A stretch of 64,000 nucleotides of DNA from Polynucleobacter bastaniensis (GTDB lineage: Bacteria; Pseudomonadota; Gammaproteobacteria; Burkholderiales; Burkholderiaceae). The notes beneath the pieces were generated by a model that worked only from the letters and a program-made list of their open reading frames with translations, ran no database searches and was not told where the DNA came from. The position numbers were made by a program, and so were the translations under genes. Shown here piece after piece: positions 10,309 through 60,214 of this stretch; position 1 is the first letter of the stretch, and every line of letters starts with the position of its first letter. Location: contig NZ_JACVOU010000004.1 of NCBI RefSeq assembly GCF_018882205.1, positions 62,001 to 126,000 on the forward strand, written 5' to 3'.

Positions 10309-11082
10309 ATGGAACATACAGTTTTAGTCACCGGCGCCACTGCCGGCTTTGGAGAGGCAACTGCGAGACGGTTTTTAGCGCATGGCCATCAAGTAATCGC
10401 CCTGGGCAGAAGAGCCGAGCGCCTGGAAGCTTTGAAAGTATCCCTACCGGCAGAGCAGCAGAAAAAATTACTCACCTTAGCTGTCGATGTTTGCGATAGC
10501 GCAATAGTTGATGGACTCGCGGCCACACTACCAGCCCAATTTGCCAAAGTAACAGTATTAGTTAATAACGCTGGATTGGCTTTAGGCCTTGAGCCGGCAC
10601 ATCAAGCCTTGCTCACGGATTGGGATCGAATGATTGATACCAATATCAAGGGGCTAGTGCACATGACGCGTGCCTTTTTACCCGGAATGGTAGAGCGCAA
10701 GTGTGGCCATGTGATTAATCTAGGTTCAGTAGCGGCAAATTATCCCTATCCGGGTGGCAACGTCTACGGAGGTACTAAAGCCTTTGTTCAGCAATTTAGC
10801 TTAAATCTCAGGGCTGATTTAATTGGCACGCCAGTACGTGTGACTTGCGTTGAGCCTGGAATGTGCGCTGGAACTGAGTTTTCGAATGTACGTTTTAAGG
10901 GTGATGATAGTAAGGCTGGTAAGGTCTACACCGGCGTGAAAGCATTAAGTGCAGATGATGTAGCGGAGGCGATTTATTGGTCTGCTAACTTACCAAGTCA
11001 TATGAATATTAATTTAGTAGAGTTAATGCCAGTGCAGCAGGCTTTCAATGGTTTTAATGTTCACCGGGGTGAATTGCAATAA
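10309..11082 (+). CDS. Short-chain dehydrogenase, YdfG-like
   Basis: A 257-residue NAD(P)-dependent oxidoreductase of the classical SDR family. It closely resembles YdfG-type 3-hydroxy acid (serine/3-hydroxypropionate) dehydrogenases. Visible motifs are TGATAGFG (residues 8-15, dinucleotide binding), GRRAERLE (an arginine pair after beta-2, favouring NADP+), NNAG (86-89), catalytic Ser140 and YGGTK with Tyr153 and Lys157. The segment CVEPGMCAGTEFSNVRFKGD fits the YdfG substrate loop. The weak ribosome-binding site is AGTAGAA. Monocistronic. Confidence 0.88.
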   Translation: MEHTVLVTGATAGFGEATARRFLAHGHQVIALGRRAERLEALKVSLPAEQQKKLLTLAVDVCDSAIVDGLAATLPAQFAKVTVLVNNAGLALGLEPAHQALLTDWDRMIDTNIKGLVHMTRAFLPGMVERKCGHVINLGSVAANYPYPGGNVYGGTKAFVQQFSLNLRADLIGTPVRVTCVEPGMCAGTEFSNVRFKGDDSKAGKVYTGVKALSADDVAEAIYWSANLPSHMNINLVELMPVQQAFNGFNVHRGELQ

Positions 11083-31695: not shown

Positions 31696-32145
31696 ATGAT
31701 CTTCAAAAAATCACAGTCTATTAAGTTTCTACAGCCCACAATGGAGTCCTTTGAAACAATCGTGGGGCCAGCAACGGAGGTTCATGGGCGAATTGTTGCG
31801 AATGAAAGTTTACGCATTGATGGTCGCGTTGTTGGGAATATAGAATCACGCCAAGGAAAAAACGTGAGCATTGCTCTTGGACGCACTGGTGTGGTGCAAG
31901 GCGATATCAATGCTTTTAGGGTGCTAGTTGCAGGACGAGTTGAGGGTAATATTTATGCCACTGAGCGCGTGGAGTTACATGAGGGGGCGGAAGTGCGCGG
32001 AGATATTACTTATGGCCAGCTGGGAATTGAGCATGGTGCCAAGTTAAACGGTTTGATGATTTCCAAAAGTAGCGATGAACCAGAGGGAGCAACTGATTCA
32101 ACCGCAATTTTCCAAGCAAATTGGAACAAAATTAAAAGTCAATAA
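31696..32145 (+). CDS. Bactofilin A
   Basis: A 149-residue polymer-forming cytoskeletal protein. The central bactofilin beta-helix (about residues 18-125) shows the repeated hydrophobic/glycine ladder: GPATEVHGRIVANESLRIDG, VVGNIES, VVQGDINAFRVLVAGRVEGN, EVRGDITYGQLGIEHGAKLNG. It would assemble into nucleotide-independent filaments at the membrane and help place cell-wall or flagellar machinery. AAAGGA precedes the ATG. It is the first of three bactofilins here. Confidence 0.9.
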   Translation: MIFKKSQSIKFLQPTMESFETIVGPATEVHGRIVANESLRIDGRVVGNIESRQGKNVSIALGRTGVVQGDINAFRVLVAGRVEGNIYATERVELHEGAEVRGDITYGQLGIEHGAKLNGLMISKSSDEPEGATDSTAIFQANWNKIKSQ

Positions 32146-32273: not shown

Positions 32274-32678
32274 TTACTCAGTATCGCTAATCTCATCTTT
32301 TGGATGAATGTCAGTTTCACTAAAAGATTGCTTGGCTGAGGATATGGGGGCATCAATTAAGCGTAGCTCACCACTGAGCTTTGCTCCTTTTTCTACACTC
32401 ATTTCAGCATATTGAGTAAGACCAGTAATTTTTGCACTGGATCGAACGTTCAAATGATTCGTGACATTAAGGCCTTGGGTAACTTCACCACGAACTTCAA
32501 CAACTTCCGCGTTGATTCTTCCATTAACAATTCCTGAGGTGTCAACCAAGACTTCTTTGGTGTTCAATTCACCCTCTACAAGGCCTGCAACCACTGCCAT
32601 TTCTGGTACCTCAAAGGTGCCTCTGACAATTACCCCTTCGCCTACGAAAAGTGATCCTCTGGGATTGTTATCGGCCAT
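32274..32678 (-). CDS. Bactofilin B
   Basis: A 134-residue bactofilin. The repeated beta-helix rungs are VGEGVIVRGTFEVPEMAVVA, VEGELNTKEVLVDTSGIVNG, INAEVVEVRGEVTQGLNVTN, and KITGLTQYAEMSVEKGAKLSG. The N-terminus is short and lacks the usual membrane-binding hydrophobic tail. The C-terminal tail is acidic (TDIHPKDEISDTE). It is convergent with bactofilin A and in the same direction as the small membrane gene at 32783. It differs strongly from A and C, so it is not a recent duplicate. Confidence 0.85.
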   Translation of the reverse strand: MADNNPRGSLFVGEGVIVRGTFEVPEMAVVAGLVEGELNTKEVLVDTSGIVNGRINAEVVEVRGEVTQGLNVTNHLNVRSSAKITGLTQYAEMSVEKGAKLSGELRLIDAPISSAKQSFSETDIHPKDEISDTE

Positions 32679-34398: not shown

Positions 34399-34866
34399 AT
34401 GTTTGAATTTTCTAAAAAAAGTAATCCTAATACAGACACTCAACTGACGTATTTAACTACAGTTGGGGCCGGTTCCATTATGAAGGGTGACTTTATTCAT
34501 AGTGGAAACATGCTTTTGTTAGGGCATTTAATTGGCGATATTTCCCAGATTGAAGAAGAGGGCTCTGGTAATGGCCATACCGCTGTAATCGGATCAACTG
34601 GATTCTTATTAGGGAATATTTACAGCCCACATGCAATCATTATTGGAAGAATCGAGGGTTCGGTTTTTGCAAAAGGACGCGTTGAAATTTATCCTGGAGC
34701 AGTAGTCATTGGGGATGTTACCTATGCGCAGATTAATGTGCACCCAGACGCTAAGGTCAACGGTAATCTCAGATGTTTATTGCCAGATGCGGTTGAGCAA
34801 AAAAATCTCTCTTTGAGTGATGAAGAGGTTCCGAGTAATGTTGTTCTATTAGCTAAAGCAGAGTGA
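34399..34866 (+). CDS. Bactofilin C
   Basis: A 155-residue bactofilin. The beta-helix rungs include GAGSIMKGDFIHSGNMLLLG, HLIGDISQ, TAVIGSTGFLLGNIYSPHAI, GSVFAKGRVEIYPGAVVIG and VTYAQINVHPDAKVNGNLR. It has an insert (QIEEEGSGNGH) between rungs not seen in A or B. It lies 40 bases after the RodZ-like gene with AAGG upstream of the ATG, so the two are probably co-transcribed. Confidence 0.87.
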   Translation: MFEFSKKSNPNTDTQLTYLTTVGAGSIMKGDFIHSGNMLLLGHLIGDISQIEEEGSGNGHTAVIGSTGFLLGNIYSPHAIIIGRIEGSVFAKGRVEIYPGAVVIGDVTYAQINVHPDAKVNGNLRCLLPDAVEQKNLSLSDEEVPSNVVLLAKAE

Positions 34867-37421: not shown

Positions 37422-38150
37422 ATGGAAGAAAGCTTGAATGAGAATAATTCGAATCTAATCACAAGTTCTGCTGCTGATTCAATTCAAGCAGCTGAGTATT
37501 TTTCAAACTTAGTCGCCAATTTGCAGCAGTTTGTACAGACTGCAAATCAAAATGATTTATTGAAATATTTTCATGAAGGCAGCAATACAACAGCTGTTCA
37601 GCGCCGCATACTGGATCTGATGATTTATGGCGAAGAGTTTGGAATAGAAACTAGGCATGACCATTTAACTGGCTTATTGGACCGCACTAGTTTTTTAGAA
37701 AAACTCAAATTTACTTTGGCGAAGACTCTCCAGGAAGATCATTTAACAGCCATAATATTTGTTGATCTTGATAACTTCAAAGCTATTAATGATCAGTATG
37801 GCCATAGTACTGGAGATGAGGTGATATCAATCATTGGCAGAAGAATCTCTGCGTCTATTCGGGCTCAGGATTTAGCCTGTCGGTGGGGTGGTGATGAGTT
37901 TGTTTTGGCGTTACAAGCCATCACAAGCAAAGATTTAGTCAGTCAATTGGCCAATCGATTACTTGCAGTAATTTCGCAAGCTCTTCAGCTTGGATCCAAA
38001 GAATCATTACAACTACTGCTAGGTGCAAGTGTTGGTATTGCCATCATGGATGATATAAATCTTAGTTCGATGGATTTAGTTGAGAGGGCTGATAAAGCAA
38101 TGTATCTTGCTAAAAAGGCTGGAAAGAATTGTATCGAGTTTTACTCTTAG
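37422..38150 (+). CDS. Diguanylate cyclase, GGDEF
   Basis: A 242-residue cytosolic enzyme making c-di-GMP from two GTP. The N-terminal about 75 residues are helical with no recognised sensor. The GGDEF domain follows from HDHLTGLLDRTSF, with DLDNFKAINDQYGHSTGDE, and the active site GGDEF at residues 156-160. The inhibitory I-site RAQD is at 147-150, five residues before GGDEF, so product inhibition is expected. It lies just before rpoN and near the YcgR-like c-di-GMP receptor, so it may feed motility control. Confidence 0.93.
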   Translation: MEESLNENNSNLITSSAADSIQAAEYFSNLVANLQQFVQTANQNDLLKYFHEGSNTTAVQRRILDLMIYGEEFGIETRHDHLTGLLDRTSFLEKLKFTLAKTLQEDHLTAIIFVDLDNFKAINDQYGHSTGDEVISIIGRRISASIRAQDLACRWGGDEFVLALQAITSKDLVSQLANRLLAVISQALQLGSKESLQLLLGASVGIAIMDDINLSSMDLVERADKAMYLAKKAGKNCIEFYS

Positions 38151-38154
38151 GAGT

Positions 38155-39549
38155 CTATTTTTTTCGAAGATGCACCGCTGGAATGCGCATCCCTTCTCGA
38201 TATTTAGCTACCGTTCGCCTAGCAATTTCATAGCCTTGATCGCCCAGTAACTTAGCAATCCTGCTGTCAGAAATAGGTTTTAATGCAGGCTCTTCTTGAA
38301 TAATTCGCTTAATCAGTTCTTGGATTGCTGTCGAGGATATTGCTACACCTTTATCAGAATTTAATTGACTGCTGAAAAAGTATTTAAATTCAAAAATACC
38401 TAGCGGACAGGATAGATATTTTTGTGTCGTCACTCTCGAAATTGTTGATTCATGCATCTCTAATGTTTCTGCTATTTCACGAAGAACAAGTGGCTTCATT
38501 CCAATTGCGCCCATGGAAAAAAACTTTTGTTGATGTTTGACGATTTCATTCGCAACCCTGAGGATCGTATCCTCTCTTTGAGCAATATTTTTAATAAGCC
38601 AGCTTGCTTCTAGAATTTTTTGTTTTAAGACTCCATCAACCTTCCCTTGACCACTCTCTTTGAGTATTTTGGCGTACTCGCCATTGAGTGAGATTCGTGG
38701 TCTTGCATTTGGATTTGATTCGACAACCCATAAGTTATTGATGGATTTGACCACGACATCCGGCAAAATCCATTGGTCGTTTTCATGGTCGAAGTAAGCG
38801 CCAGGATTATGTTGCAAACTGCGTATGAGCTCTACCGCTTTGAGAACTTCTGCCTCAGTTTTGTTGCTCGCTTGTTTGATCTTAAGCCAATCTTTTGAAC
38901 CAACCTTATTTAAATGGGTATTGACAATATATTTGGCTAGTTCCCATGCTGATTGATCGGGGATAGGTTTTTCTAAAATACGATCAATTTGCAGGGATAG
39001 GCATTCTGCTAAATTGCGTCCGCCAATGCCGGGCGGATCAAGTGACTGCAGTTTTTTTAGTGCGGACTCTAGTAGATAAAGCGTGCTTGATTCTTGACTA
39101 TCAAGTTCATTTTTGATTTCCGCATGAATTGACTCGAGATCATCAATGAGATAGCCTCTGTCATCCAGGCAGCCCGCCAGATAGGTAATGATCGACTGCT
39201 CTTGTGGACTTACATGAAGGAGATGAATTTGCTCCTCGACATACTCTAAAAGGGTTTGTTGATGAGCTATGCGCTCATAGCGCTCTGCCCAGTCATCGTC
39301 ATCATCCTGCGACGCCCTATTGCTTGAGGTCCAAGAGTTTTGTGTCTGTTCAAGCCGTTCAGAAGATTGAGAGGCATTAAACTCAATTTCTGGATTAGGC
39401 TCAAATTCCAGCAAGGGATTATCTTCAGCGGCCTTCGCTAATTCCTGCTCTAGTTCGTTATTGGATAACTGCAATAAGCGGATTGTTTGTTGCAGTTGAG
39501 GTGTTAGGGTGACCTGCTGACTAACTCTAGTATTAAGCGAAATAGCCAT
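38155..39549 (-). CDS. rpoN: RNA polymerase sigma-54 factor
   Basis: A 464-residue sigma factor that recruits polymerase to -24/-12 promoters under enhancer-protein control. The N-terminal Gln/Leu-rich activator-interacting region reads LTPQLQQTIRLLQLSNNELEQ. A core-binding region follows, and the C-terminal DNA-binding part holds the RpoN box ARRTVAKYRE with the upstream helix-turn-helix (ISDSRIAKLLGDQGYEI). It is inside a motility region and pairs with the FlrC-like enhancer binding protein at 60577. It is unusually not beside the common lptB/hpf genes. Confidence 0.95.
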   Translation of the reverse strand: MAISLNTRVSQQVTLTPQLQQTIRLLQLSNNELEQELAKAAEDNPLLEFEPNPEIEFNASQSSERLEQTQNSWTSSNRASQDDDDDWAERYERIAHQQTLLEYVEEQIHLLHVSPQEQSIITYLAGCLDDRGYLIDDLESIHAEIKNELDSQESSTLYLLESALKKLQSLDPPGIGGRNLAECLSLQIDRILEKPIPDQSAWELAKYIVNTHLNKVGSKDWLKIKQASNKTEAEVLKAVELIRSLQHNPGAYFDHENDQWILPDVVVKSINNLWVVESNPNARPRISLNGEYAKILKESGQGKVDGVLKQKILEASWLIKNIAQREDTILRVANEIVKHQQKFFSMGAIGMKPLVLREIAETLEMHESTISRVTTQKYLSCPLGIFEFKYFFSSQLNSDKGVAISSTAIQELIKRIIQEEPALKPISDSRIAKLLGDQGYEIARRTVAKYREGMRIPAVHLRKK

Positions 39550-40616: not shown

Positions 40617-41378
40617 ATGGCCATCATTACCTACCCCCCCGAATTAGTAGACAAAATAGATCCTAAATTTCACATAGAGCACTCAGCTATTGCTAAAACT
40701 ATGCTTCGAGAAATTAGTAAAACCCCTTTGGCAGGGGTATATGCGATTGATGGATCTGGTGCCGAGTTTGCAGCCACCGTCCTCGATATCTACAAAGGAT
40801 TATTGGTGTTAAAGCCAGAGACCGAGCCTCCTAAGGGATTTAGTAGCGTTATTGGCACCAGTCAGATTATTGTGGCCTGTACTGAAAACTCAAAAATGCA
40901 GTTTCTTTCAAGTGATTTTAGGATGCATGAAGATGGCAGTTTAATAACCTGCTCTCTCCCGCAAGAACTCACTGTGATCCAGCGTCGCAAAGAGTTTAGA
41001 ACATTGGGGCCGAGTGATGAACAGTTTAATTTCGTTCTTTCACTAGGGGCTGGTCAAGAATTATTAGCAAAAGTAGCCGATGTTTCTGATCATGGGATTT
41101 TGCTAGATATTCGTTTGGGTGCAGCTGAAGTTGAGGTGGGGCGCTATTGGCATTCAGGATACTTTGAGCGCCAAAAATTCCGCTCAGGCAGTATCGATTT
41201 AATCATCCGCAATGTACGCCCTGGTAAAGCGCTTGATCGCATTCGAGCGGGTTGCGAGCTATACAACCCTAGCAAAACCGCACTCAAAGAATTTGAGTCT
41301 ACTAGAAATGCCATTGAAAATGCCCGTGTACAAGGACGCTTAAATCGTTGGTATGCGTCGGCTAGTTGGTGTGAATAA
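40617..41378 (+). CDS. ycgR: YcgR-like flagellar brake protein with PilZ domain
   Basis: A 253-residue c-di-GMP receptor. The N-terminal YcgR domain (about 15-118) is followed by a PilZ domain with both c-di-GMP binding motifs: QRRKEFR at 122-128 and DVSDHG (DxSxxG) at 155-160. In enterobacteria the c-di-GMP-bound form acts on the motor to slow swimming. Here the gene starts an apparent operon that continues through two membrane proteins, the degenerate chemosensory set and flgA. No strong ribosome-binding site is seen before the ATG at 40617. Confidence 0.87.
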   Translation: MAIITYPPELVDKIDPKFHIEHSAIAKTMLREISKTPLAGVYAIDGSGAEFAATVLDIYKGLLVLKPETEPPKGFSSVIGTSQIIVACTENSKMQFLSSDFRMHEDGSLITCSLPQELTVIQRRKEFRTLGPSDEQFNFVLSLGAGQELLAKVADVSDHGILLDIRLGAAEVEVGRYWHSGYFERQKFRSGSIDLIIRNVRPGKALDRIRAGCELYNPSKTALKEFESTRNAIENARVQGRLNRWYASASWCE

Positions 41379-41416: not shown

Positions 41417-42232
41417 ATGAGCTTGTTTACTAACTTTACAAGTGGAAAATTGATCATGATCCTCAGTGTGATCATGCTTATTCCACTGCTGTATTTTTTT
41501 ATTCGTGATTTTTACAGCAAAGTGGTTGATGAGGTAAAAAATACTGGTTCATCTATCCCAGTTGAACCCATTATGGTGACCAGCTTAAATAAAACAAACC
41601 AGCTTGAAGAGGTTATCAACCAAAAGATTGCAAACATGAAGTTGGATTTAATGGCAGAGCGTTTACGTATTACATCTACGGCAGACGTCCTAAAAAATCT
41701 TGCTTTTGAACGTCATCTTCCAGAAACTCTTTATCAGATTTATTTTGAGACACGAGCCTTCCCTAGAAAAAATGTAGAAGCTCAGCAAACGGATTTGGAA
41801 TGGCATGCCAAAGCAGGTATTACAGAGCTGAAGGTAGAGCCGATGCCTTTAGATGATGGCACTGTTATTCAATTCACTTTGCAGAACTACCCATATACGC
41901 TAAGTGCTATCAATCATCGCTTTGCTAGAACCTATTTTGTTGAATTAACTCTCCGAGATGTTGATAGCACTCGCTTATTTGTAGTGCGTATTAAGGCTAA
42001 TGAATTAACCGGCAGAGAGATTCTGGAAACAGCCATTATTGAAATGAAGTCCGGTGAGTGGATAGATGATCTTGCTAGTTGCCGCCTCTTAATGGATAAG
42101 CGCAAGACTGAGGTTCAGTTAATGGCTGAGCATCGTGAAGTAGAGATGCTAAAAAAGCGCTTCATTTTAAATAACGCTGGCGATAGGCTTGTAGCAAATA
42201 AAGTTGCCGCTAAGTCGCGCAAGAGTGAATGA
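41417..42232 (+). CDS. Membrane-anchored protein of unknown function
   Basis: A 271-residue protein with one N-terminal membrane segment (about 11-29, LIMILSVIMLIPLLYFFIR). A coiled helix follows (NQLEEVINQKIANMKLDLMA), then a beta-rich globular domain (AGITELKVEPMPLDDG, IQFTLQNYPYTLSAINHRFA, RTYFVELTLRDVDSTRLFVV) and a C-terminal charged helix. I recognise no family. It overlaps the PDZ gene by 4 bases (ATGA), suggesting tight coupling. Whether the globular part is periplasmic or cytoplasmic is unclear from charge distribution. Confidence 0.7.
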   Translation: MSLFTNFTSGKLIMILSVIMLIPLLYFFIRDFYSKVVDEVKNTGSSIPVEPIMVTSLNKTNQLEEVINQKIANMKLDLMAERLRITSTADVLKNLAFERHLPETLYQIYFETRAFPRKNVEAQQTDLEWHAKAGITELKVEPMPLDDGTVIQFTLQNYPYTLSAINHRFARTYFVELTLRDVDSTRLFVVRIKANELTGREILETAIIEMKSGEWIDDLASCRLLMDKRKTEVQLMAEHREVEMLKKRFILNNAGDRLVANKVAAKSRKSE

Positions 42233-43257
42233 TCATTGTGACTGAAAAAATTACTTTCTACTCACAAAAAAATATTTATTTTTGGTTTTTAACCTTTTCT
42301 GGATTCCTGTTTGCGGTCTCTTTATTGGTATTACTTGGGGCTGCAAATGATTTATCCGAATCTTCTTCGGAGCTGAAACAGCTGAAAGTAGCGATGCCAG
42401 TACTGGATGATTTTGTTGCGACTCAAAAAATTGACGTTCGCCTTAATAAAAATCAGCGACGCTTAAAATCAAGTGACATTCCAAAATTGGTTGATGGGGC
42501 GATTATTCCAGTTAATACAGATGAGGCAGTGAATCGAACTTTTCAATTTTTCTCAGAATTTGAAAACAAACGTTCTGCATCATTGCTCGCAGTTGAATTG
42601 CCTGCCGTAGAGTCCATTGAGCTGGGCTCACCTGCTGAGGCAGCAGGCATAAAACCAGGCGATTTAATCCTAGCTGTTAATGCAACAAAGATTGAATCTG
42701 CCTTAGGTTTTTATCTCGCACTAAACGAAAAAACTTCCGCAGATGTAAACGTTAAATTATTGAGAAATAAAAGAGATAGTTTGACGGTTGCAATGCGCAT
42801 GGCAGATAGGTCGACAATCACTGGAAATAATTGTGGAATTAAGTTCATTCTGCCGGGTGATGTGATCTACCTAACAGAAGTTGAGACAAAACGTCTTGCA
42901 GAGCAATATCGTCGCGATATATTGTCAACTATCCCGGTAGATTGGCGAACCGAAGTGTCCAATGATTTAATGCAAATTGCTAGACGTCTAAATGCAATCG
43001 CTAAAAACGTGATTGATCCAACCGGTGTAAACCCAGTCAAATTGCAAACCAGAGATATAGTTGTCTGGCATAGCAAAAAGGTTGCAGAAAACATTGATAT
43101 TTACTTTTCCCAGAGACGCAAGATTGAAGCTAAAAATGTTTCGTATATGACGGGGATCGGGGATGCATTTGTTGGTTTTGTGTGCAGCGTGCTCATTTTT
43201 GCTGTGGCACTTGCCATGTTTTGGTATCAAGGTCGTGAATCAGGAAAAAAATCATGA
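42229..43257 (+). CDS. Membrane protein with PDZ domain
   Basis: A 342-residue protein with membrane segments near both ends (about 17-37, FWFLTFSGFLFAVSLLVLL; and about 309-331, GDAFVGFVCSVLIFAVALAMF). The middle therefore faces one side of the membrane, probably the periplasm. A PDZ domain is clear at about residues 125-190 (SIELGSPAEAAGIKPGDLIL, VNATKIESALGFYLAL, VNVKLLRNKRDSLTV), with no protease domain. The region after it (GNNCGIKFILPGDVIYLTEV) is unassigned. It is coupled to both neighbours by overlapping codons. Confidence 0.8.
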   Translation: MIIVTEKITFYSQKNIYFWFLTFSGFLFAVSLLVLLGAANDLSESSSELKQLKVAMPVLDDFVATQKIDVRLNKNQRRLKSSDIPKLVDGAIIPVNTDEAVNRTFQFFSEFENKRSASLLAVELPAVESIELGSPAEAAGIKPGDLILAVNATKIESALGFYLALNEKTSADVNVKLLRNKRDSLTVAMRMADRSTITGNNCGIKFILPGDVIYLTEVETKRLAEQYRRDILSTIPVDWRTEVSNDLMQIARRLNAIAKNVIDPTGVNPVKLQTRDIVVWHSKKVAENIDIYFSQRRKIEAKNVSYMTGIGDAFVGFVCSVLIFAVALAMFWYQGRESGKKS

Positions 43258-43661
43258 CAACATTACAAATGCAAGATTACTGGTTAGGAATGCGGATTAA
43301 TGGCGGCCGTTATGCGATTTCGACAAAATTCATACATGCCGTCTTTTTGCATCCCGAACCTGAGCAGGGCATGAAAGATCTACGTATTAATGGTGTTGTA
43401 GTCTATAAGGGTGAACCCATTTGCTTGCGTAATCATTTTCAACTACTACGCTTTGATCAACGCGGAGATAGTTTTGTGGATTGGCATCAGTCTCTAAAGC
43501 AGTCTAGCGCACCTTGGATCATTGTTTTGAGAAATGGCCCTCAAGAAGGCTTGGGTTTCAGGATTAATAATATTGTGGGGCCCTTTTACGCTGAGACGAT
43601 ACCTGATTCTTCATTCTTTTATCACAACGGCGCTGATTATCATTTGGTGGGGGTCTCTTAA
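43254..43661 (+). CDS. CheW/PilI-like protein
   Basis: A 135-residue protein that fits the CheW fold, the coupling protein between a receptor and a kinase. The order of strands matches: YWLGMRINGGRYAISTKFIH, then DLRINGVVVYKGEPICLRNH (where CheW has the R-G-x-(I/V)-(I/V)-P-(I/V)-x-D-L block), then PWIIVLRNGPQEGLGFRINN and IVGPF. Conservation is low, and it has no canonical RG pair. It lies between the PDZ gene and an MCP-like gene, the same order as pilI-pilJ-chpA. So it is likely a divergent adaptor. Confidence 0.65.
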   Translation: MTTLQMQDYWLGMRINGGRYAISTKFIHAVFLHPEPEQGMKDLRINGVVVYKGEPICLRNHFQLLRFDQRGDSFVDWHQSLKQSSAPWIIVLRNGPQEGLGFRINNIVGPFYAETIPDSSFFYHNGADYHLVGVS

Positions 43662-43709
43662 GGCCGACAATACCGATCAGTCACTTAATCGCTAGTCGAG
43701 ATCATTTAT

Positions 43710-45704
43710 ATGAATAAGAAAAATAATAGCCATATCTTTTCCCAGCACCCAATTCTTTTGTGGCAATGGGTTTCCTATGTTTCGTTTGCGCTGGTGTTGG
43801 CTGCCAGTATCGGTGCTTTTCTCTCTGCGCGCTCTTGGGTATCTGAAGGTAAGTATCTGCAATCAATTGATGGCGAACAGATTCAAGTGTTACGTTTGAT
43901 TCCTTTCTTAAAAGAGTTACAGCAGCAAACAAACGGTCCCGTTACCTTAGAGCCTGTTTTTTTTACAAACTTAAAAAAAGCTGAGATCTTCTTAAAGTCA
44001 GCAACTACAGACTTGAAGAACCAGCCTGAGCTAAGTCCTAATTCAGCGTCTGCTGTGTCGACCAAGGGGATAAGTGAACCTACTGCATTGAAGTCTTTGA
44101 GTGGCCAAGCTTCGGCTTCAGCTGTAAAAAATCCTAGCACGACTAAAGAGGCAGAATCGTCTACTCCTTTGTTGCCACTATCCGATAATCCGGTAGTTGC
44201 TCTTTTTCAAAGGTTGGACTCTAAGGTAATGGCTGTCGTTTTCGGTAAGCCTGAGAAATATGCTGTCAAGTCCGACAAAAAAAATGACGATGAGAAATCT
44301 GAGCAGACTGAGGAAGCTGAAAATCTCAAGAAAAATCCAAAACCTTCCACCCCACTTGAGGTGCTGATAAGTGCTAAAAATACTGAGCAGGCAATCGGAG
44401 TAATACTCGCACAAGAAAAAAGCTTAAATGATTTAGCTGTCTTAGCAAGGTCAGGTGAAGTACTAATTGGCCCTAAGGGATCACTCGAGTTGGATAAACT
44501 TCCCTCTGAATCTGCTGTAAAAAAATATGCAGAAAGCATTGGTAATTTTGTCAAGGCACACAATGCTTGGCAAAAAAATATCACTGATATTGCGACAATA
44601 TCAGACCTTCAAAAATCACTTGGTGTAGTTCTTGAGCAAAAGGTGCTTTTGGAAATTGATGTCGGTAAAAAAACAGCTGGTAAGTCAAACCTCAAGCTAA
44701 CAGATGTAGCGCCTAAGGTGCCGCAAAGTCCTTGGTATTCAAAGTTACCGCAAGAAAGTGTAGCAGTGCTGAATGCTTATGTTTTGAATATGCGGATAAT
44801 TAAGGATTTCGCTAACGACTATGGGTCTTTGCGTCTTGCTGCGCAAAAAAAATCTCAATCAATTCAATATTTTGATTTTAAAGATGCTGGCGGATTTTTA
44901 GGTTTGATTTTAGTTTCGATCATTACCGCTTTTGGAATCATCTTAGGTGCTTATATGGCGCTCGTGAATACCCGACGTAATGCGCAAGATTTGCAGCGGG
45001 CATCTAAACAGACTAGGGCTGCCGGTCAGCTATTAAAAACAATTGACTTAGGCTTTGCTAGTGCGCCAAGTAACAAAACATCCAAGGCTAATTCACAAAA
45101 TAATGATTCTGATCAATCGACAGACCAACTCAATGTGAAGACAGTGATGAATGTCATTTCCGAGTTAAGTGATGATTTAAAAAATAAAATTAAGAAAATA
45201 GACACGCACTTTAAAGTACTTTCACAGCTCAATACCAAATTACGCCATTCTATTGATACCCTGCATGAGAAGAGTGGCCAGATTCGTACAAATACGTCTG
45301 ATAAAAGTAGTAATTCACCCTACAGCCAAGAGATGGGTATTAGTAGGGGCGGACCTTTAGATCAGCTTCAAGATGCTTTTTCTGCCTTAAAGCAACAGGG
45401 TGTCCGTCTTTACTTGGCCATATTGGATAACCATTCTAGTAAACAACTTGCCGTTGAAACAGAGCAGCTGAATTTATTAGTAGAGAGAGTCGAGGCTACT
45501 GTATCGAAGATGCGCTCGACGCTCGCTGTCGCACTAGAACAAGCTACGCCTATGGAAGTGCAGGCGCCACAGATTTCTTTAGAGGCTATTGAGCTTCTGA
45601 GTATGGATGCCAAACAGGTCATGCGTGATCTTCAGTTATGGCAAGGTGAATTTGATGGATTGAATAAAGCTTTCGCTGAATTAAAACGAGAAGCAAGGGT
45701 CTAA
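43710..45704 (+). CDS. MCP/PilJ-like two-span membrane protein, degenerate
   Basis: A 664-residue protein laid out like a chemoreceptor. The first membrane segment (about 17-36, VSYVSFALVLAASIGAFLSA) is followed by a large periplasmic region with a long low-complexity Ser/Ala/Lys/Glu insert, a second segment (about 397-420, GGFLGLILVSIITAFGIILG), and a 240-residue cytoplasmic helical tail (ELSDDLKNKIKKIDTHFKVL, VERVEATVSKMRSTLAVALE). The conserved receptor tip (E-x-G-x-x-G-x-G-F-A-V-V-A-x-E-V-R) is absent. So it may be a structural receptor-like protein rather than a standard methyl-accepting one. Confidence 0.7.
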   Translation: MNKKNNSHIFSQHPILLWQWVSYVSFALVLAASIGAFLSARSWVSEGKYLQSIDGEQIQVLRLIPFLKELQQQTNGPVTLEPVFFTNLKKAEIFLKSATTDLKNQPELSPNSASAVSTKGISEPTALKSLSGQASASAVKNPSTTKEAESSTPLLPLSDNPVVALFQRLDSKVMAVVFGKPEKYAVKSDKKNDDEKSEQTEEAENLKKNPKPSTPLEVLISAKNTEQAIGVILAQEKSLNDLAVLARSGEVLIGPKGSLELDKLPSESAVKKYAESIGNFVKAHNAWQKNITDIATISDLQKSLGVVLEQKVLLEIDVGKKTAGKSNLKLTDVAPKVPQSPWYSKLPQESVAVLNAYVLNMRIIKDFANDYGSLRLAAQKKSQSIQYFDFKDAGGFLGLILVSIITAFGIILGAYMALVNTRRNAQDLQRASKQTRAAGQLLKTIDLGFASAPSNKTSKANSQNNDSDQSTDQLNVKTVMNVISELSDDLKNKIKKIDTHFKVLSQLNTKLRHSIDTLHEKSGQIRTNTSDKSSNSPYSQEMGISRGGPLDQLQDAFSALKQQGVRLYLAILDNHSSKQLAVETEQLNLLVERVEATVSKMRSTLAVALEQATPMEVQAPQISLEAIELLSMDAKQVMRDLQLWQGEFDGLNKAFAELKREARV

Positions 45705-45737
45705 TGCAATTGATTTTTTATAAGGCGTAATGCAAAT

Positions 45738-47222
45738 ATGGCCGAAGAAAAACCCCTGTTTTTAATTGATATTGATCGTGCTATTGAAGGTCTGCAGACT
45801 GCTGCCCCTAAAAAAGGTTCGGCGTCAGCAGTATCGATTGAGCCATTAATCATGCATAGCGTTGATTTAGCTAATGCGCTAGATGGCGCTGGATTAGATG
45901 ATTTAAGTGGGATGACTAACGAATTAGCGCAGTGTTTTAAGAAAAATGATGCACAAGCTTTTTTGGTGTTGGATGATCTAGTTAGTCTAGTGAAGTCAGA
46001 AGTCGCATTTACGCATCCATCGGTAGCGAGTGGAGCGTCTTGCACTCTAGAGCAATTAAATCAAGCAAAAGTATTATTTGCCGCCAATTTATCGCAAATC
46101 CAAAATGGTTTGCCGATCACCAAAAATCCTGATGCAGTATTAGCGCAAGATCTTCCTGCTGAGGCAGATCCTGATGTAACTCAGGAAGCGATTGAGGCTG
46201 TCAGCAGTAAAGAAGAGGAATTGGTCTTTAGTAAATCGCCAATCTCTGAGTTGTCTGCTTCTCCAGTGATCCCAACTATCCAGGAATTATCGCCAGAACC
46301 TTCTATCGCAGAATTGAGCGCCCTATTTGCACCGCGTCTTCATGAAGAGTCTCCAGTAGTTTTTACTCCTCCTGAGCCCAAAGCATTCTCTTTTCCCGAG
46401 GGTTTGACTCGTCCTCTAGAGCGTGAGAATTCATTAGATTATTCAGGTAGTCAGCGTTTCTTAGATAAGCACTTTTCCTTGAATCGTGCCCACAACCTCA
46501 ATCGTATGCAAATAGCACGAAGTTTAGTTACTAAGACTGAAAACTGGAATGCTGTAGAGCTTGATTTCTTGCTTGGGCGTGAGCAAGATGAGCTCACTAA
46601 AGCTGGTCAACAATCATTACGCCATGTATTTGAGAATTTGACAGAGGAGCTCTTGATTGATGAGGTGTATGCCGATCCCGAGATCGTCCAACAACTAGTC
46701 ACGATCATTAGCATCTTGCCGCCCTGTCCGAGTATTTTTGCAGTTCAGCAAGATTTAATGATTTTTATTGATTTAGACCACATATCCTTATCTGCGGAAC
46801 ATCTCTTGTCAGCAGGCAAAATGATGGCTGAAATTGGGGGCTCACTCGAAATGCATCATGAAGGAGTGCGTCTATCATGCCCATCTAGTTTATTAAGAAT
46901 GCCCATGGTCTTTTTTGGACGGCACGGGCAAAACTATGCTGTTTCAGCAATTCAGTATTTAGGGGAAGAGGCCCTCAATAAACCAGTGGATAGTAAGGTC
47001 GATGCATTGGGCGAGATTTTGCATCCCGCTAGGATGATTAATCTGCTTGTAGGTAATCAGCATTACTCTATTTATGCCCATGAATTTTTAGGGGTTCAGA
47101 ATATGAATATTCACCTCAACATTCCTAAATTACTAGAGCGACCCTATTGGTTGGCTGGTATGGCCTTAGATGGTATGAATAATGTGTACCCTTGGGTAGC
47201 TTTAGATCGGTTTACCAAATAA
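45738..47222 (+). CDS. CheA/ChpA-like protein with degenerate kinase domain
   Basis: A 494-residue protein. The C-terminal 130 residues match the two CheW-like modules at the end of CheA/ChpA: RMPMVFFGRHGQNYAVSAIQ, then MINLLVGNQHYSIYAHEFLG, and PYWLAGMALDGMNNVYPWVA. Just before them GGSLEMHHEGVRLS corresponds to the end of the HATPase domain (GGxIxVxSxxGxGTxF). But the N-box, G1 (DDGxG) and G2 (GRGVGMD) motifs are missing and no HPt histidine signature (HxxKG) is visible. It therefore appears to be a non-catalytic scaffold derived from CheA. It ends overlapping flgA (TAATG). Confidence 0.7.
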   Translation: MAEEKPLFLIDIDRAIEGLQTAAPKKGSASAVSIEPLIMHSVDLANALDGAGLDDLSGMTNELAQCFKKNDAQAFLVLDDLVSLVKSEVAFTHPSVASGASCTLEQLNQAKVLFAANLSQIQNGLPITKNPDAVLAQDLPAEADPDVTQEAIEAVSSKEEELVFSKSPISELSASPVIPTIQELSPEPSIAELSALFAPRLHEESPVVFTPPEPKAFSFPEGLTRPLERENSLDYSGSQRFLDKHFSLNRAHNLNRMQIARSLVTKTENWNAVELDFLLGREQDELTKAGQQSLRHVFENLTEELLIDEVYADPEIVQQLVTIISILPPCPSIFAVQQDLMIFIDLDHISLSAEHLLSAGKMMAEIGGSLEMHHEGVRLSCPSSLLRMPMVFFGRHGQNYAVSAIQYLGEEALNKPVDSKVDALGEILHPARMINLLVGNQHYSIYAHEFLGVQNMNIHLNIPKLLERPYWLAGMALDGMNNVYPWVALDRFTK

Positions 47223-47908
47223 TGCCGCTCTTTAGTCGTTTTTTGATTGGGCTGCTATTTTGCACGCTGTCGCAGAGCCTTTATGCTGCTTTACCCCCAG
47301 ATCTTGAGCAAGCTATTAAGCGATTTATTCAAAAAAGTCCCACTGTCAATGGTTTGCGGGTGGAGACTGAATGGCTCGAGCCTAATCTCACGATTCCAGC
47401 TTGCTTGGGCGGTAGCATTGAAATTTTGACTCCCCCAGGTGCGCGCTTATGGGGTCGGTCCATGATCCAATTGCGGTGCGCCAAAGCCGCCTGGTTAATC
47501 AATGTGCCAGTCAATATTCATGCCTATGGAGATTATGTTGTAGCCAGCCGCTACCTACCTTTTGGCCAAAAGCTTGAAACTGGGGATATTCGGGTAATTG
47601 AGGGTGATTTAACCGTGCTACCAGATGATGTACTACGGAACCCTAAAGCTGCTTATGAGCGAGTTTTGGGTAAATCTTTGCAAATGGGCATGCCAATTGG
47701 GCTAAACGATTTGAAAGAATCTGCCGTAATAAAAGTAGGAGATCCTGTTAGGATTCAATTAACAGGTAAAGATTTTCAGGTTTCCGGTGAAGGTGTTGCC
47801 CAAACCACCGGAATGATTGGGGATATGGTAAGAGTGCGCTTGTCCGACGGGCAGGTTTTACAAGGCAAGGTATTGAGGCCAGGAATTATTAGCGTTAATA
47901 TGGAATAA
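47222..47908 (+). CDS. flgA: FlgA, flagellar P-ring assembly chaperone
   Basis: A 228-residue periplasmic chaperone for P-ring (FlgI) assembly. A signal peptide (about 1-23, ending QSLYA) is followed by a SAF domain and the conserved C-terminus (VLGKSLQMGMPIGLNDLKES, VKVGDPV-like VIKVGDPVRIQL, VSGEGVAQTTGMIGDMVRVR). The ATG at 47222 overlaps the preceding stop and begins the signal peptide. It thus shares a transcript with the CheA-like gene, and its own promoter is not obvious. Confidence 0.92.
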   Translation: MPLFSRFLIGLLFCTLSQSLYAALPPDLEQAIKRFIQKSPTVNGLRVETEWLEPNLTIPACLGGSIEILTPPGARLWGRSMIQLRCAKAAWLINVPVNIHAYGDYVVASRYLPFGQKLETGDIRVIEGDLTVLPDDVLRNPKAAYERVLGKSLQMGMPIGLNDLKESAVIKVGDPVRIQLTGKDFQVSGEGVAQTTGMIGDMVRVRLSDGQVLQGKVLRPGIISVNME

Positions 47909-47976: not shown

Positions 47977-48321
47977 ATGAAAATTAACGAGAATGCACCA
48001 CTAATTCCGCCAAATACTGGAACAGCCAAACCTGTGCCAGGCTCGAACTCGACTGCCAATACAACTAACACAGCTTTAAATCAAACCTCAGCATCTGCGG
48101 TCAGTCGCCCTGCAGTCAATTTAGATATTGGTTTAGCAGCCAAGCTTGCTGAAGCGCACAGCAGTACTAGCGCTACCAATCAGGTTAGTGATGAGCTCTT
48201 AATTAAAAAACTACGCGATAAGGTTGCTGCTGGTCAGTTTGAGATTGATTACAACAAGATCTCCCAGTCAATGTTGAAGGATGTTGTTGCAGCAATTGGG
48301 CAAAAACCAAGTCGTCCTTAA
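47977..48321 (+). CDS. flgM: FlgM, anti-sigma-28 factor
   Basis: A 114-residue inhibitor of FliA, exported through the completed hook-basal body to release late gene expression. The N-terminal half is Thr/Asn/Ser-rich and disordered, and the C-terminal half has the FlgM sigma-binding helices (DELLIKKLRDKVAAGQFEID and YNKISQSMLKDVVAAI). A strong ribosome-binding site (GAGGAG) precedes the ATG. fliA is close by on the opposite strand. Confidence 0.88.
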   Translation: MKINENAPLIPPNTGTAKPVPGSNSTANTTNTALNQTSASAVSRPAVNLDIGLAAKLAEAHSSTSATNQVSDELLIKKLRDKVAAGQFEIDYNKISQSMLKDVVAAIGQKPSRP

Positions 48322-48423: not shown

Positions 48424-48837
48424 ATGGTAAAACCACATCCATCCATGTCTTTTGACGATTTATTAAAGTTCTTAAAGGGTATTGCAAGTGCTATTGAGGG
48501 TCTGCGTACAGCTTTAGAGGCTAACGATATGGATCGACTTCCAGAATCGCTAGAAAGCACTAATCAGGCTTTGGATGCTATTCAGAATTATCCAGGAGGT
48601 GCTGACAAGCTCAAGCAAGATATTCACCAATTTGAGTCAGCACAAACTAAGCAATTATTAGCATTACTAGATGAAGCCTCAGTTAACCACCAAATCAATG
48701 GGGATCTGATTCGCTTAGCGATGCAACGCAGCTCTGCCATGCAGTCTTTTATTGCTCAGCAAGCGCCAAGCGCGACTTACGGAAGTGATGGAGGTGTTCC
48801 AGGATCCGTAGGCGGTGTACTGTCTCGCAAAGTCTAG
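48424..48837 (+). CDS. flgN: FlgN-like flagellar export chaperone
   Basis: A 137-residue helical protein downstream of flgM, the usual place for flgN, the chaperone of hook-associated proteins FlgK and FlgL. Helices read SFDDLLKFLKGIASAIEGLR, LPESLESTNQALDAIQN, and IHQFESAQTKQLLALLDEAS. The tail is Gly/Ser-rich. Sequence identity to FlgN is low, so the call leans on position and helical layout. An in-frame ATG at 48445 is an alternative start. Confidence 0.7.
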   Translation: MVKPHPSMSFDDLLKFLKGIASAIEGLRTALEANDMDRLPESLESTNQALDAIQNYPGGADKLKQDIHQFESAQTKQLLALLDEASVNHQINGDLIRLAMQRSSAMQSFIAQQAPSATYGSDGGVPGSVGGVLSRKV

Positions 48838-58868: not shown

Positions 58869-59930
58869 GTGCCAATACCAATTCCTTCAAACCTCTCCAT
58901 CAGCCCAATGGTGGACGTCCGTAAAAACGACCTAGTTACCCCACCAACTGCCCCATCAGTGATTGAAAGTTTGAATGCGATAGATCCGCGGATTGCGCTG
59001 AATATGCCCATGCCAGTAGGGGATTCAGCCGCAGGAAATGCAGTCAGAACTGCTTTGCAAAATGGTAATTTGGCAGAATTAAAAACAATGCTCGAGTCTG
59101 GCGAGCCCAGTGTTCAACAAGCAGTTTTATTGGAAATTTCCAATCTATCCTCGGGTAAATCTGATTTGCCGGCCAAGCTCACTCAGGCAAATTTAAATAA
59201 CCTGGTATCTGAGAATTTAAGCAAGATGGATAGCTTAGGAAGCGCCGCCTTAGGTCAGTTGCTATCTGATATCTTAGTTGCTGATACGCCAGAATCAGTG
59301 CCAATCTCTCGCCAGCAAGCGAGTTTAAATCCATCAAATAATGTGGTGGTGAGCTGGCCAGCAATCGATGTAAATCACCTTAATGCCCAAGATCCTAAGA
59401 TAGTGTTAGGTGCCCTGTACCAAAGCTTACAAGCTTCTGGCATTTTTGCGGCTGACCAGTTAAAGAGGGTGCTATTTCCTGCGGGTAACTCTGATGACGT
59501 TAGTAATTCTTTTGCGCCAAGTGGTGATCATCAGCAAGCTAGTGAGCTCATGGCCCAATTATCAAATAATGCGCCGATAGTTCAAGATTCAGTACGATTA
59601 CTTTTGCGTGGCGACTTGTTATGGCAAGGTCAATTGATGCCTAATGTACAAGGTCGTTTATACCGTGAAGATGCTTGGCGATCAGACCCTAGTCAGCCAA
59701 ATCAATTAGAAAAAGGCTCTCGTATTACCTTAGAAGTGGGCTTACCCAATCTTGGCCCTTTAAAAATTATTGGCACTCAGTTTGGAGAAAGCCTACAGTT
59801 GGCCATTCAGGCTGATTCTTCGGCCCAAGCAAGTCTGTCAAAGGCTTTTCCGAATTTAGAGGAGCAGCTGCATGCGCATATTGATCCCGAAACTCGGGTT
59901 AGTCTGGGTCAAATCGAGACATCAATCTGA
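58869..59930 (+). CDS. fliK: FliK-like flagellar hook-length control protein
   Basis: A 353-residue protein with a long low-complexity N-terminal part and a FliK-type C-terminal domain (VRLLLRGDLLWQGQLMPNVQ, GSRITLEVGLPNLGPLKIIG, LAIQADSSAQASLSKAFPNL). This domain switches export specificity when the hook reaches its proper length. A GTG start at 58869 follows GGGAGG. Its stop overlaps the flhX start, so the two are coupled. Identity is low, as usual for FliK. Confidence 0.8.
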   Translation: MPIPIPSNLSISPMVDVRKNDLVTPPTAPSVIESLNAIDPRIALNMPMPVGDSAAGNAVRTALQNGNLAELKTMLESGEPSVQQAVLLEISNLSSGKSDLPAKLTQANLNNLVSENLSKMDSLGSAALGQLLSDILVADTPESVPISRQQASLNPSNNVVVSWPAIDVNHLNAQDPKIVLGALYQSLQASGIFAADQLKRVLFPAGNSDDVSNSFAPSGDHQQASELMAQLSNNAPIVQDSVRLLLRGDLLWQGQLMPNVQGRLYREDAWRSDPSQPNQLEKGSRITLEVGLPNLGPLKIIGTQFGESLQLAIQADSSAQASLSKAFPNLEEQLHAHIDPETRVSLGQIETSI

Positions 59931-60214
59931 TGGAAGAAAAAAAGACGCTGAAGGCAGTTGCACTCAAGTATGAGATGAATAGTGCTGCTCCCCGTATTAC
60001 GGGACAAGGCGAAGGTTTCATTGCTGAAGCCATTTTGGCGAAAGCCAAGGAAATGGGAATTCCGACCAAAATTGAGCCTGAATTAGTAGAGTTCTTAATG
60101 CAACTCAAATTAAATGAGCTAGTACCCCCAAAACTGTACGCTGCGGTCGCAGAAGTGCTTGCCTGGGCTTATGAGTTAGATGGTAAAACGCTCGAGAGAC
60201 CTGCAAAAGATTAA
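59930..60214 (+). CDS. FlhX, stand-alone FlhB C-terminal-like protein
   Basis: A 94-residue protein equal to the C-terminal cytoplasmic domain of FlhB/YscU: KTLKAVALKYEMNSAAPRIT, then GEGFIAEAILAKAKEMGIPT, PELVEFLMQLKLNELVPPKL and YAAVAEVLAWAYE. It has no membrane domain and no NPTH autocleavage motif, like FlhX in other bacteria, which can replace the FlhB C-terminal part. It is coupled to fliK, the protein with which FlhB acts in hook-length switching. Confidence 0.9.
   Translation: MEEKKTLKAVALKYEMNSAAPRITGQGEGFIAEAILAKAKEMGIPTKIEPELVEFLMQLKLNELVPPKLYAAVAEVLAWAYELDGKTLERPAKD

Follow-up and report, generated by a model that had tools for sequence, protein, structure and literature searches.

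A kinase-free gene module with chemosensory-type parts, linked to one type of flagellum in Polynucleobacter bastaniensis and its relatives

Background

To our knowledge, the nearest kinase-defective CheA is CheA3 of Rhodobacter. The Rhodobacter sphaeroides protein is reported to have a P5 domain and no working kinase domain (PMC6829392, PMC10782961), and four core domains, the kinase (HATPase) domain among them, were present in all the homologues that a survey of CheA collected (PMC10782961). ParP of Vibrio is described as kinase-free, with a domain of the P5/CheW-like kind; it forms arrays without CheA and couples array formation to placement (PMC5706961). No description of a kinase-free module of CheA-, CheW- and receptor-like proteins belonging to flagella was found in searches of the open-access literature. 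Here we analyse a candidate for such a module in a stretch of 64,000 nucleotides from Polynucleobacter bastaniensis (RefSeq assembly GCF_018882205.1, contig NZ_JACVOU010000004.1, positions 62,001 to 126,000), referred to below as the window, where five genes that we call TM1, PDZ, CheWl, MCPl and CheAl run into the flagellar gene flgA. Two parts of the module are, judged by their sequences, recognisable chemosensory parts, yet the features that define a CheA and those that define a chemotaxis system were both looked for and not found. Taken together, the results suggest that parts of a sensor array, or parts at least partly derived from one, have been put to new use in the flagellum of some freshwater bacteria, as a component that does not signal.

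One description reports that P. duraquae encodes flagella and that motility is usually not observed; its strain MWH-MoK4 may slowly spread through soft agar (PMC5018217). The free-living strain QLW-P1DMWA-1 is described as lacking motility and chemotaxis (PMC3308952).

Results

The module and the flagellar genes that adjoin it are as follows, with the coordinates of the window:

43254..43661, + strand: CheWl, a 135-residue coupling-like protein with a CheW fold according to the evidence of family profiles
43710..45704, + strand: MCPl, a 664-residue protein that is receptor-like by layout and gene order
45738..47222, + strand: CheAl, 494 residues, derived from CheA, with neither kinase motifs nor an HPt histidine
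46818..47219, + strand: CheAl residues 361-494, the P4 end (GGSLE) and a shortened P5 (CheW-like) domain
41417..42232, + strand: TM1, 271 residues, of no known family, with a single N-terminal hydrophobic region
42229..43257, + strand: PDZ protein, its PDZ domain between two hydrophobic regions and presumably periplasmic
47222..47908, + strand: flgA, P-ring chaperone
47977..48321, + strand: flgM-like gene, just under curated cut-offs
48424..48837, + strand: flgN
40617..41378, + strand: PilZ/YcgR-like protein, with matches below curated cut-offs, adjoining the module in 7 of 14 loci

The arrangement is operon-like: TM1 and PDZ overlap by 4 bases, as do the end of PDZ and the start codon of CheWl, and the CheAl stop codon shares one base with the likely flgA ATG (TAATG) at 47222. 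A preliminary description of this DNA had singled out the last three genes of the module, and co-oriented open reading frames of 135, 664 and 494 residues do lie where it placed them, but the unit is larger than that triad: it reaches back to 41417 on the upstream side and shares a base with flgA downstream. Because four of the five window proteins have no Pfam match above cut-off, the module is missed by ordinary annotation. The window copies of the triad by themselves gave no useful Pfam or NCBIfam matches, and we therefore built each family from relatives.

At the level of sequence profiles, descent of the last ~130 residues of CheAl from the P4 end and P5 of CheA is confirmed. An hhalign comparison of 14 CheAl proteins with 29 CheA/ChpA segments gave a score of 44.3 (E 2.7e-5), compared with a maximum of 23.2 among 200 column shuffles and 11.4 for the reversed profile. 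The template consisted of segments from other genomes of the same order; 32 loci were fetched and 29 segments used, with L083 and L087 omitted as unparsed and L051 because its longest frame was not CheA. Residues ~361-484 align first to the end of P4, with GGSLE over the GGxxE of CheA, and then to a shortened P5. What had been read as two terminal CheW-like modules aligns instead to the two halves of this one P5 domain. Removing the P4 end from the template lowered the score from 44.3 to 27.1, so that it contributes 17 units and favours CheA over a plain CheW origin. The score does vary with the template, from 25.7 with a first set of 12 segments and 39.9 with 7 to the value given for 29, and from 11.5 to 36.1 with single CheA sequences. 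When the profiles of 27 protein families of the window were compared with the CheA profile as decoys, CheAl (42.5) stood out clearly, because only the true histidine kinase of the window, presumably of the FlrB type, outscored it (119.7). CheWl reached 28.9, a protein resembling the tail of FlhB 28.8, FlhA 26.0 and all other families at most 23.4.

Five subsets of the CheA template, named within this analysis, scored between 13.7 and 44.9: Polynucleobacter CheA 44.9, flagellar CheA 34.9, ChpA 31.2, and two other CheA sets 25.4 and 13.7. An origin from the type IV pilus protein ChpA is thus not favoured, and of the tie to pilI-pilJ-chpA proposed earlier the likeness in gene order survives and a specific closeness to ChpA does not.

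Searches with patterns for the kinase boxes and the HPt histidine found no N-box, G1 or HPt pattern in any of the 14 CheAl homologues, and the string H[TS]xK[GA] for the HPt histidine occurs in none of them; among G2-type patterns there was a single GTxF-like string, in one homologue. Intact kinase motifs in close homologues, the finding that was to overturn the idea of a CheA-like protein without a kinase, were therefore not encountered among these 14, and that idea holds for residues ~361-484. There is faint support, from profile comparison, for an HPt-like N-terminus: 13 CheAl members, one with a long insert having been dropped, scored 19.8 against HPt (hhalign P 0.011; maximum of 199 shuffles 18.1). 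The CheAl of genome G003 (L032:9691-12315) has 874 residues, with a long insert between its N- and C-terminal parts.

For CheWl, a CheW fold is likewise confirmed by profile comparison, as had been proposed for 43254-43661. The Pfam CheW model (PF01584) matches 4 of the 9 family members (best E 1.4e-4), with no match for the window copy alone; the best three matches of the family profile in the PDB are all CheW chains (E 0.037-0.057); and the score against CheA-P5 profiles is 27.3, exceeding the 19.0 that was the highest of 200 column shuffles. Since CheWl does not stand out in the decoy test, its assignment rests on these Pfam, PDB and P5-profile comparisons.

MCPl is receptor-like by layout and gene order only. 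Its hydrophobic regions at ~15-33 and 390-419 enclose a long predicted extracytoplasmic region and precede a long, presumably cytoplasmic tail, and two such regions are present in all nine family members. Against 23 segments of methyl-accepting chemotaxis proteins (MCPs) the family scored weakly (22.9, P 0.022, equalled by 1 of 150 shuffles of seven-column blocks); a first attempt with 3 segments had given 18.5. The MCP signalling domain (PF00015) was not among the matches of the nine members. Of the receptor-like protein described earlier, the two spans and the tail are borne out and homology to MCPs is not. The ten most conserved residues of the tail, LKQQGVRLYL (560-569), lie near its middle; the pattern LKxQxxxLxL with its turn resembles an MCP tip by eye, a resemblance on which we base no claim.

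The module has a restricted distribution. CheAl occurs in 9 of 61 genomes of relatives, namely 8 of the 37 from the genus (that of the window counted) and one from another family; CheWl and MCPl are each found in the same 8 of the 61, and in the ninth only by position and alignment. TM1 was found in 8 of the 61 relatives and 5 of 26 genomes from the second family; wider sampling gave 7 in 399 for the order and one in 369 for the class, which is the window's own. Wherever the locus could be read (14 of 14 loci, in two families) the order is CheWl-MCPl-CheAl-flgA-flgM-flgN, and two further contigs end within the module; the conserved co-occurrence with flgA that was to be looked for in related genomes is there.

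Within the genus the module goes with one type of flagellum. FlhA is above cut-off in 13 of the 37 members, and its Pfam scores are 816-835 bits in the eight module carriers and 870-902 in four of the five non-carriers, the fifth being partial at a contig end (659). With the FlhA of three carriers of the other family, that of the window shares 66-70% identity, against 49% with the FlhA of two flagellate members of the genus that lack the module. A genome from outside, G045, has an intermediate FlhA score (838) and neither CheAl nor TM1. Two distinct sets of flagellar genes occur in Polynucleobacter, with FlhA 49% identical between them, one with sigma-54 activator genes and the module and the other without the module.

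Purifying selection on the module resembles that on flgA. Ratios of nonsynonymous to synonymous substitution rates (dN/dS) for the five genes are 0.013-0.166 in comparison with two near relatives (L039 and L038), for which flgA gives 0.059 and 0.080; L037 is more distant, and there saturated synonymous divergence left only 2 of the 8 genes with a ratio that could be calculated. CheAl has an open reading frame in all 14 genomes, from both families, and within the first nine to be aligned identities fall as low as 24%. This selection makes decay unlikely, and we accordingly regard as very improbable the idea that the module is the remnant of a broken chemotaxis operon, persisting by chance in streamlined genomes, even though TM1 was not found in two carriers and the CheAl of one draft genome is frameshifted. 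That draft is of P. hallstattensis, whose CheAl is 95% identical to the window copy in the best segment; the frameshift falls at a run of C (L013, ~10608-10616) that is interrupted in the closely related genome G031, where the frame is open, and is probably a sequencing error or a variable tract.

Carriers of the module have also lost parts of chemotaxis. Three domains were searched, PF02895, PF01584 and PF00015, in sets of carriers that differ by domain. The CheA dimerisation domain P3 (PF02895), present in 24 of the 61 genomes, was found in none of the nine carriers within that set; the carriers G376, G402, G249, G142 and G218 lay outside this search. A search of the window's genome for CheW (PF01584) gave no match, and the MCP domain (PF00015) was not found in 12 of 14 carriers, G376 and G402 having one each. 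The N-terminal peptide of FliM binds CheY. It is lacking in all 13 FliM proteins recovered from the 14 carriers (none was recovered from G142), and among non-carriers, for which 9 of 10 FliM proteins were parsed (G037 was not), it is canonical in 7 and altered in 2 (G007 and G014). Both of the latter genomes also lack PF02895, as does G029, which keeps the peptide, so that the two losses are not always coupled. That no canonical CheA was found in the nine carriers searched, together with the lack of the FliM peptide in 13, strengthens the conclusion that signalling chemistry has been lost, and the contention of the preliminary description that array-type parts were kept while this chemistry was given up agrees with what we find: coupling-type parts are retained under purifying selection, and kinase and phosphoacceptor motifs are gone.

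The same results bear on whether the module might serve an active CheA encoded elsewhere in the genome, as CheA3 of Rhodobacter does with CheA4. The report of that split kinase provides a precedent (PMC6829392), and the single MCPs of G376 and G402, two of the genomes that the PF02895 search did not cover, would fit. Set against this are the missing PF02895 in all carriers searched, the missing PF01584 in the window's own genome, the lack of an HPt histidine string in CheAl and a FliM without its CheY-binding peptide, and we consider this the least probable of the explanations weighed here.

The non-carrier G007, which belongs to the same genus and is flagellate, has a receptor gene (L095:9774-11720) between motB-like and flhB-like genes; its product has a Tar-type sensor domain and a partial, sub-threshold match to the MCP signalling domain. 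G007 may possibly represent a second, independent loss of chemotaxis.

TM1 is the best conserved of the five module families. Its profile matched nothing in the PDB, and its weak Pfam matches are scattered, any one family being hit by at most 5 of 12 members. TM1 and PDZ lie directly upstream of the triad in 12 of 14 loci.

The window's genome measures 2.14 Mb. The sigma-54 gene rpoN lies upstream of the module (38155-39549), flanked by a GGDEF (diguanylate cyclase) gene (37422-38150, + strand) and the PilZ/YcgR-like gene (40617-41378, + strand); cyclic di-GMP may have taken over control of the motor. Upstream of rpoN and the flagellar genes, three bactofilin genes occupy ~3.2 kb (31696-32145, + strand; 32274-32678, - strand; 34399-34866, + strand), and L060 and L061 carry a homologue of the third on this side of their clusters as well. 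Beyond flgN, the opposite strand encodes a sigma-70-family factor (FliA type), a protein without Pfam match that we take to be FlhG-like, an SRP54-type GTPase (FlhF type) and FlhA. Further along are flagellin, FlaG, FliD, FliS, a weak FliK-like match, FliE, a sigma-54 activator and a histidine kinase, the last two presumably of the FlrC and FlrB types. Beside the FliK-like gene, 59930-60214 (+ strand) encodes a stand-alone protein whose match to FlhB is confined to the C-terminal part (PF01312, E 6.8e-14), with homologues at the same place in L098, L099, L103, L105 and L111; full-length FlhB is also present in the window's genome.

Discussion

CheW and P5 domains assemble on the tails of receptors into ring lattices (PMC5706961). 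Because ParP forms arrays without CheA, and because such ring lattices exist, we read the module as a lattice or ring that keeps its building function and has lost its signal. Our tentative preference, to which we give slightly less than even weight, is that its products form a membrane-anchored, kinase-free complex derived from a chemosensory core unit and now dedicated to one divergent type of flagellum. CheWl and the P5-like end of CheAl would interact with one another and with the tail of MCPl in the cytoplasm. At the inner membrane they would make up a small ring or lattice, joined by the single-span TM1 and the periplasmic PDZ protein. Left with neither kinase nor phosphoacceptor histidine nor a docking site for CheY, the complex would act by binding and positioning; it might place, assemble or steady the flagellar base, or dock the motor. 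In a wider form, the proposition is that a core unit of receptor, CheW and P5 with a PDZ partner, stripped of phosphorylation, is a structural or directly conformational component of the flagellum, inherited with the flagellar cluster in two families after its link to CheY was cut, and on this we regard the case for and the case against as evenly balanced.

Several results weigh against the proposed scaffold. In two carriers (G018 and G036) TM1 and PDZ are lacking beside the triad and TM1 has no match anywhere in the genome; neither protein can therefore be essential to the triad. CheWl and the P5 of CheAl do not match each other, their score of 19.3 lying within 100 shuffles (maximum 20.1). 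The part of MCPl that aligns with MCPs is near the membrane, away from the tip, which leaves an MCP ancestry unsupported. CheAl residues 240-381 scored 17.3 against P3/P4 (best of 100 shuffles 27.3) and residues 240-360 match no domain, so that a retained P4 fold is not supported; of the likeness to P4 and P5 that was to be checked, the P4 end and P5 stand. Pfam CheW matches none of the 14 CheAl P5 regions. A plain hidden Markov model (HMM) search of the PDB with the CheAl P5 profile returned no CheA, as did a two-sequence P5 profile, and the full-length profile returned nothing relevant; by plain HMM the best E value of the CheAl profile against genuine CheA segments was 0.049. AlphaFold2 models from two-row alignments with one relative each had a predicted local distance difference test (pLDDT) of 33.5 for CheWl and 36.6 for CheAl 240-494, values too low to inform on the CheW fold sought there. 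Finally, a sigma-54 promoter search before the operon did no better than on shuffles, and a search for a sigma-28 promoter there, run without a control, showed nothing striking.

Some of these results count towards a different origin, in which the proteins are flagellar accessory proteins that have a CheW-type SH3 fold and were never part of a chemosensory core unit. MCPl without convincing similarity to MCPs, CheAl without P3/P4 similarity ahead of the P4 end, the lack of a mutual match between CheWl and CheAl P5, and a CheWl decoy score equalled by the unrelated FlhB-tail family all agree with a resemblance of fold. However, the CheAl alignment runs from the end of P4 into P5, with the former adding to the score, members of the CheWl family match Pfam CheW, the CheAl N-terminus is faintly HPt-like, and the order of coupling, receptor and kinase-like genes is that of chemosensory operons. 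We consider this account improbable.

The main rival to a kinase-free scaffold is signalling without phosphorylation. MCPl and the PDZ protein would sense the periplasm or envelope, and a conformational change would pass through CheWl and CheAl to the motor or to the PilZ/YcgR-like protein acting as a brake, replacing CheY. The receptor-like topology of MCPl, with its long part between two hydrophobic regions, would suit a sensor, as would the position of the PDZ domain between two hydrophobic regions. FliG, FliM, FliN, FliL, MotA and MotB are present in the window's genome, and with FliG, FliM, FliN, MotA and MotB the motor can run. The PilZ/YcgR-like gene lies just upstream in half of the 14 loci, and its window copy contains RxxxR and DxSxxG strings, which we take to be meaningful in a protein of this kind. 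But the gene is inconstant (in G005, G018, G036 and the other family it was not observed beside the module), no output protein was identified, and the absence of TM1 from two carriers tells against this scheme as well. We judge it unlikely, if less so than a mere likeness of fold.

If the scaffold reading is true, a chemosensory array has been reused without a signal, its receptor-like and coupling-like proteins still under selection beside flagellar genes, and the lattice-building role of CheW and P5 can be separated from their role in signalling. It would also raise the question of how planktonic freshwater bacteria use a flagellum that CheY cannot switch.

Comparison with known systems

The module resembles the core signalling unit of CheW, CheA (P5) and MCP in its CheW fold, its CheA P5 and its order of coupling, receptor and kinase-like genes, and differs from it in having no kinase motifs, HPt histidine, recognisable MCP signalling domain or CheY-binding peptide on FliM. 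With the Pil-Chp system, in which the genes have the same order, it shares the sequence CheW-MCP-CheA; unlike Pil-Chp it adjoins flagellar genes, and the ChpA subset is not its best match. CheA3 of Rhodobacter reportedly retains a histidine domain that can be phosphorylated and acts together with the kinase CheA4 and with CheY6 (PMC6829392), whereas the searches made for CheAl turned up no HPt histidine and no partner kinase.

ParP acts inside a complete chemotaxis system of MCP, CheW and CheA, with ParC as its anchor. By contrast, in carriers of the module no CheA and mostly no MCPs were found, the P4 end can still be read in CheAl, and the gene overlaps flgA. ParP is described as a kinase-free protein that joins receptor arrays and whose C-terminal, SH3-like AIF domain resembles CheA P5 and CheW (PMC5706961), and this is the likeness to the module: one of kind, drawn from how ParP is described.

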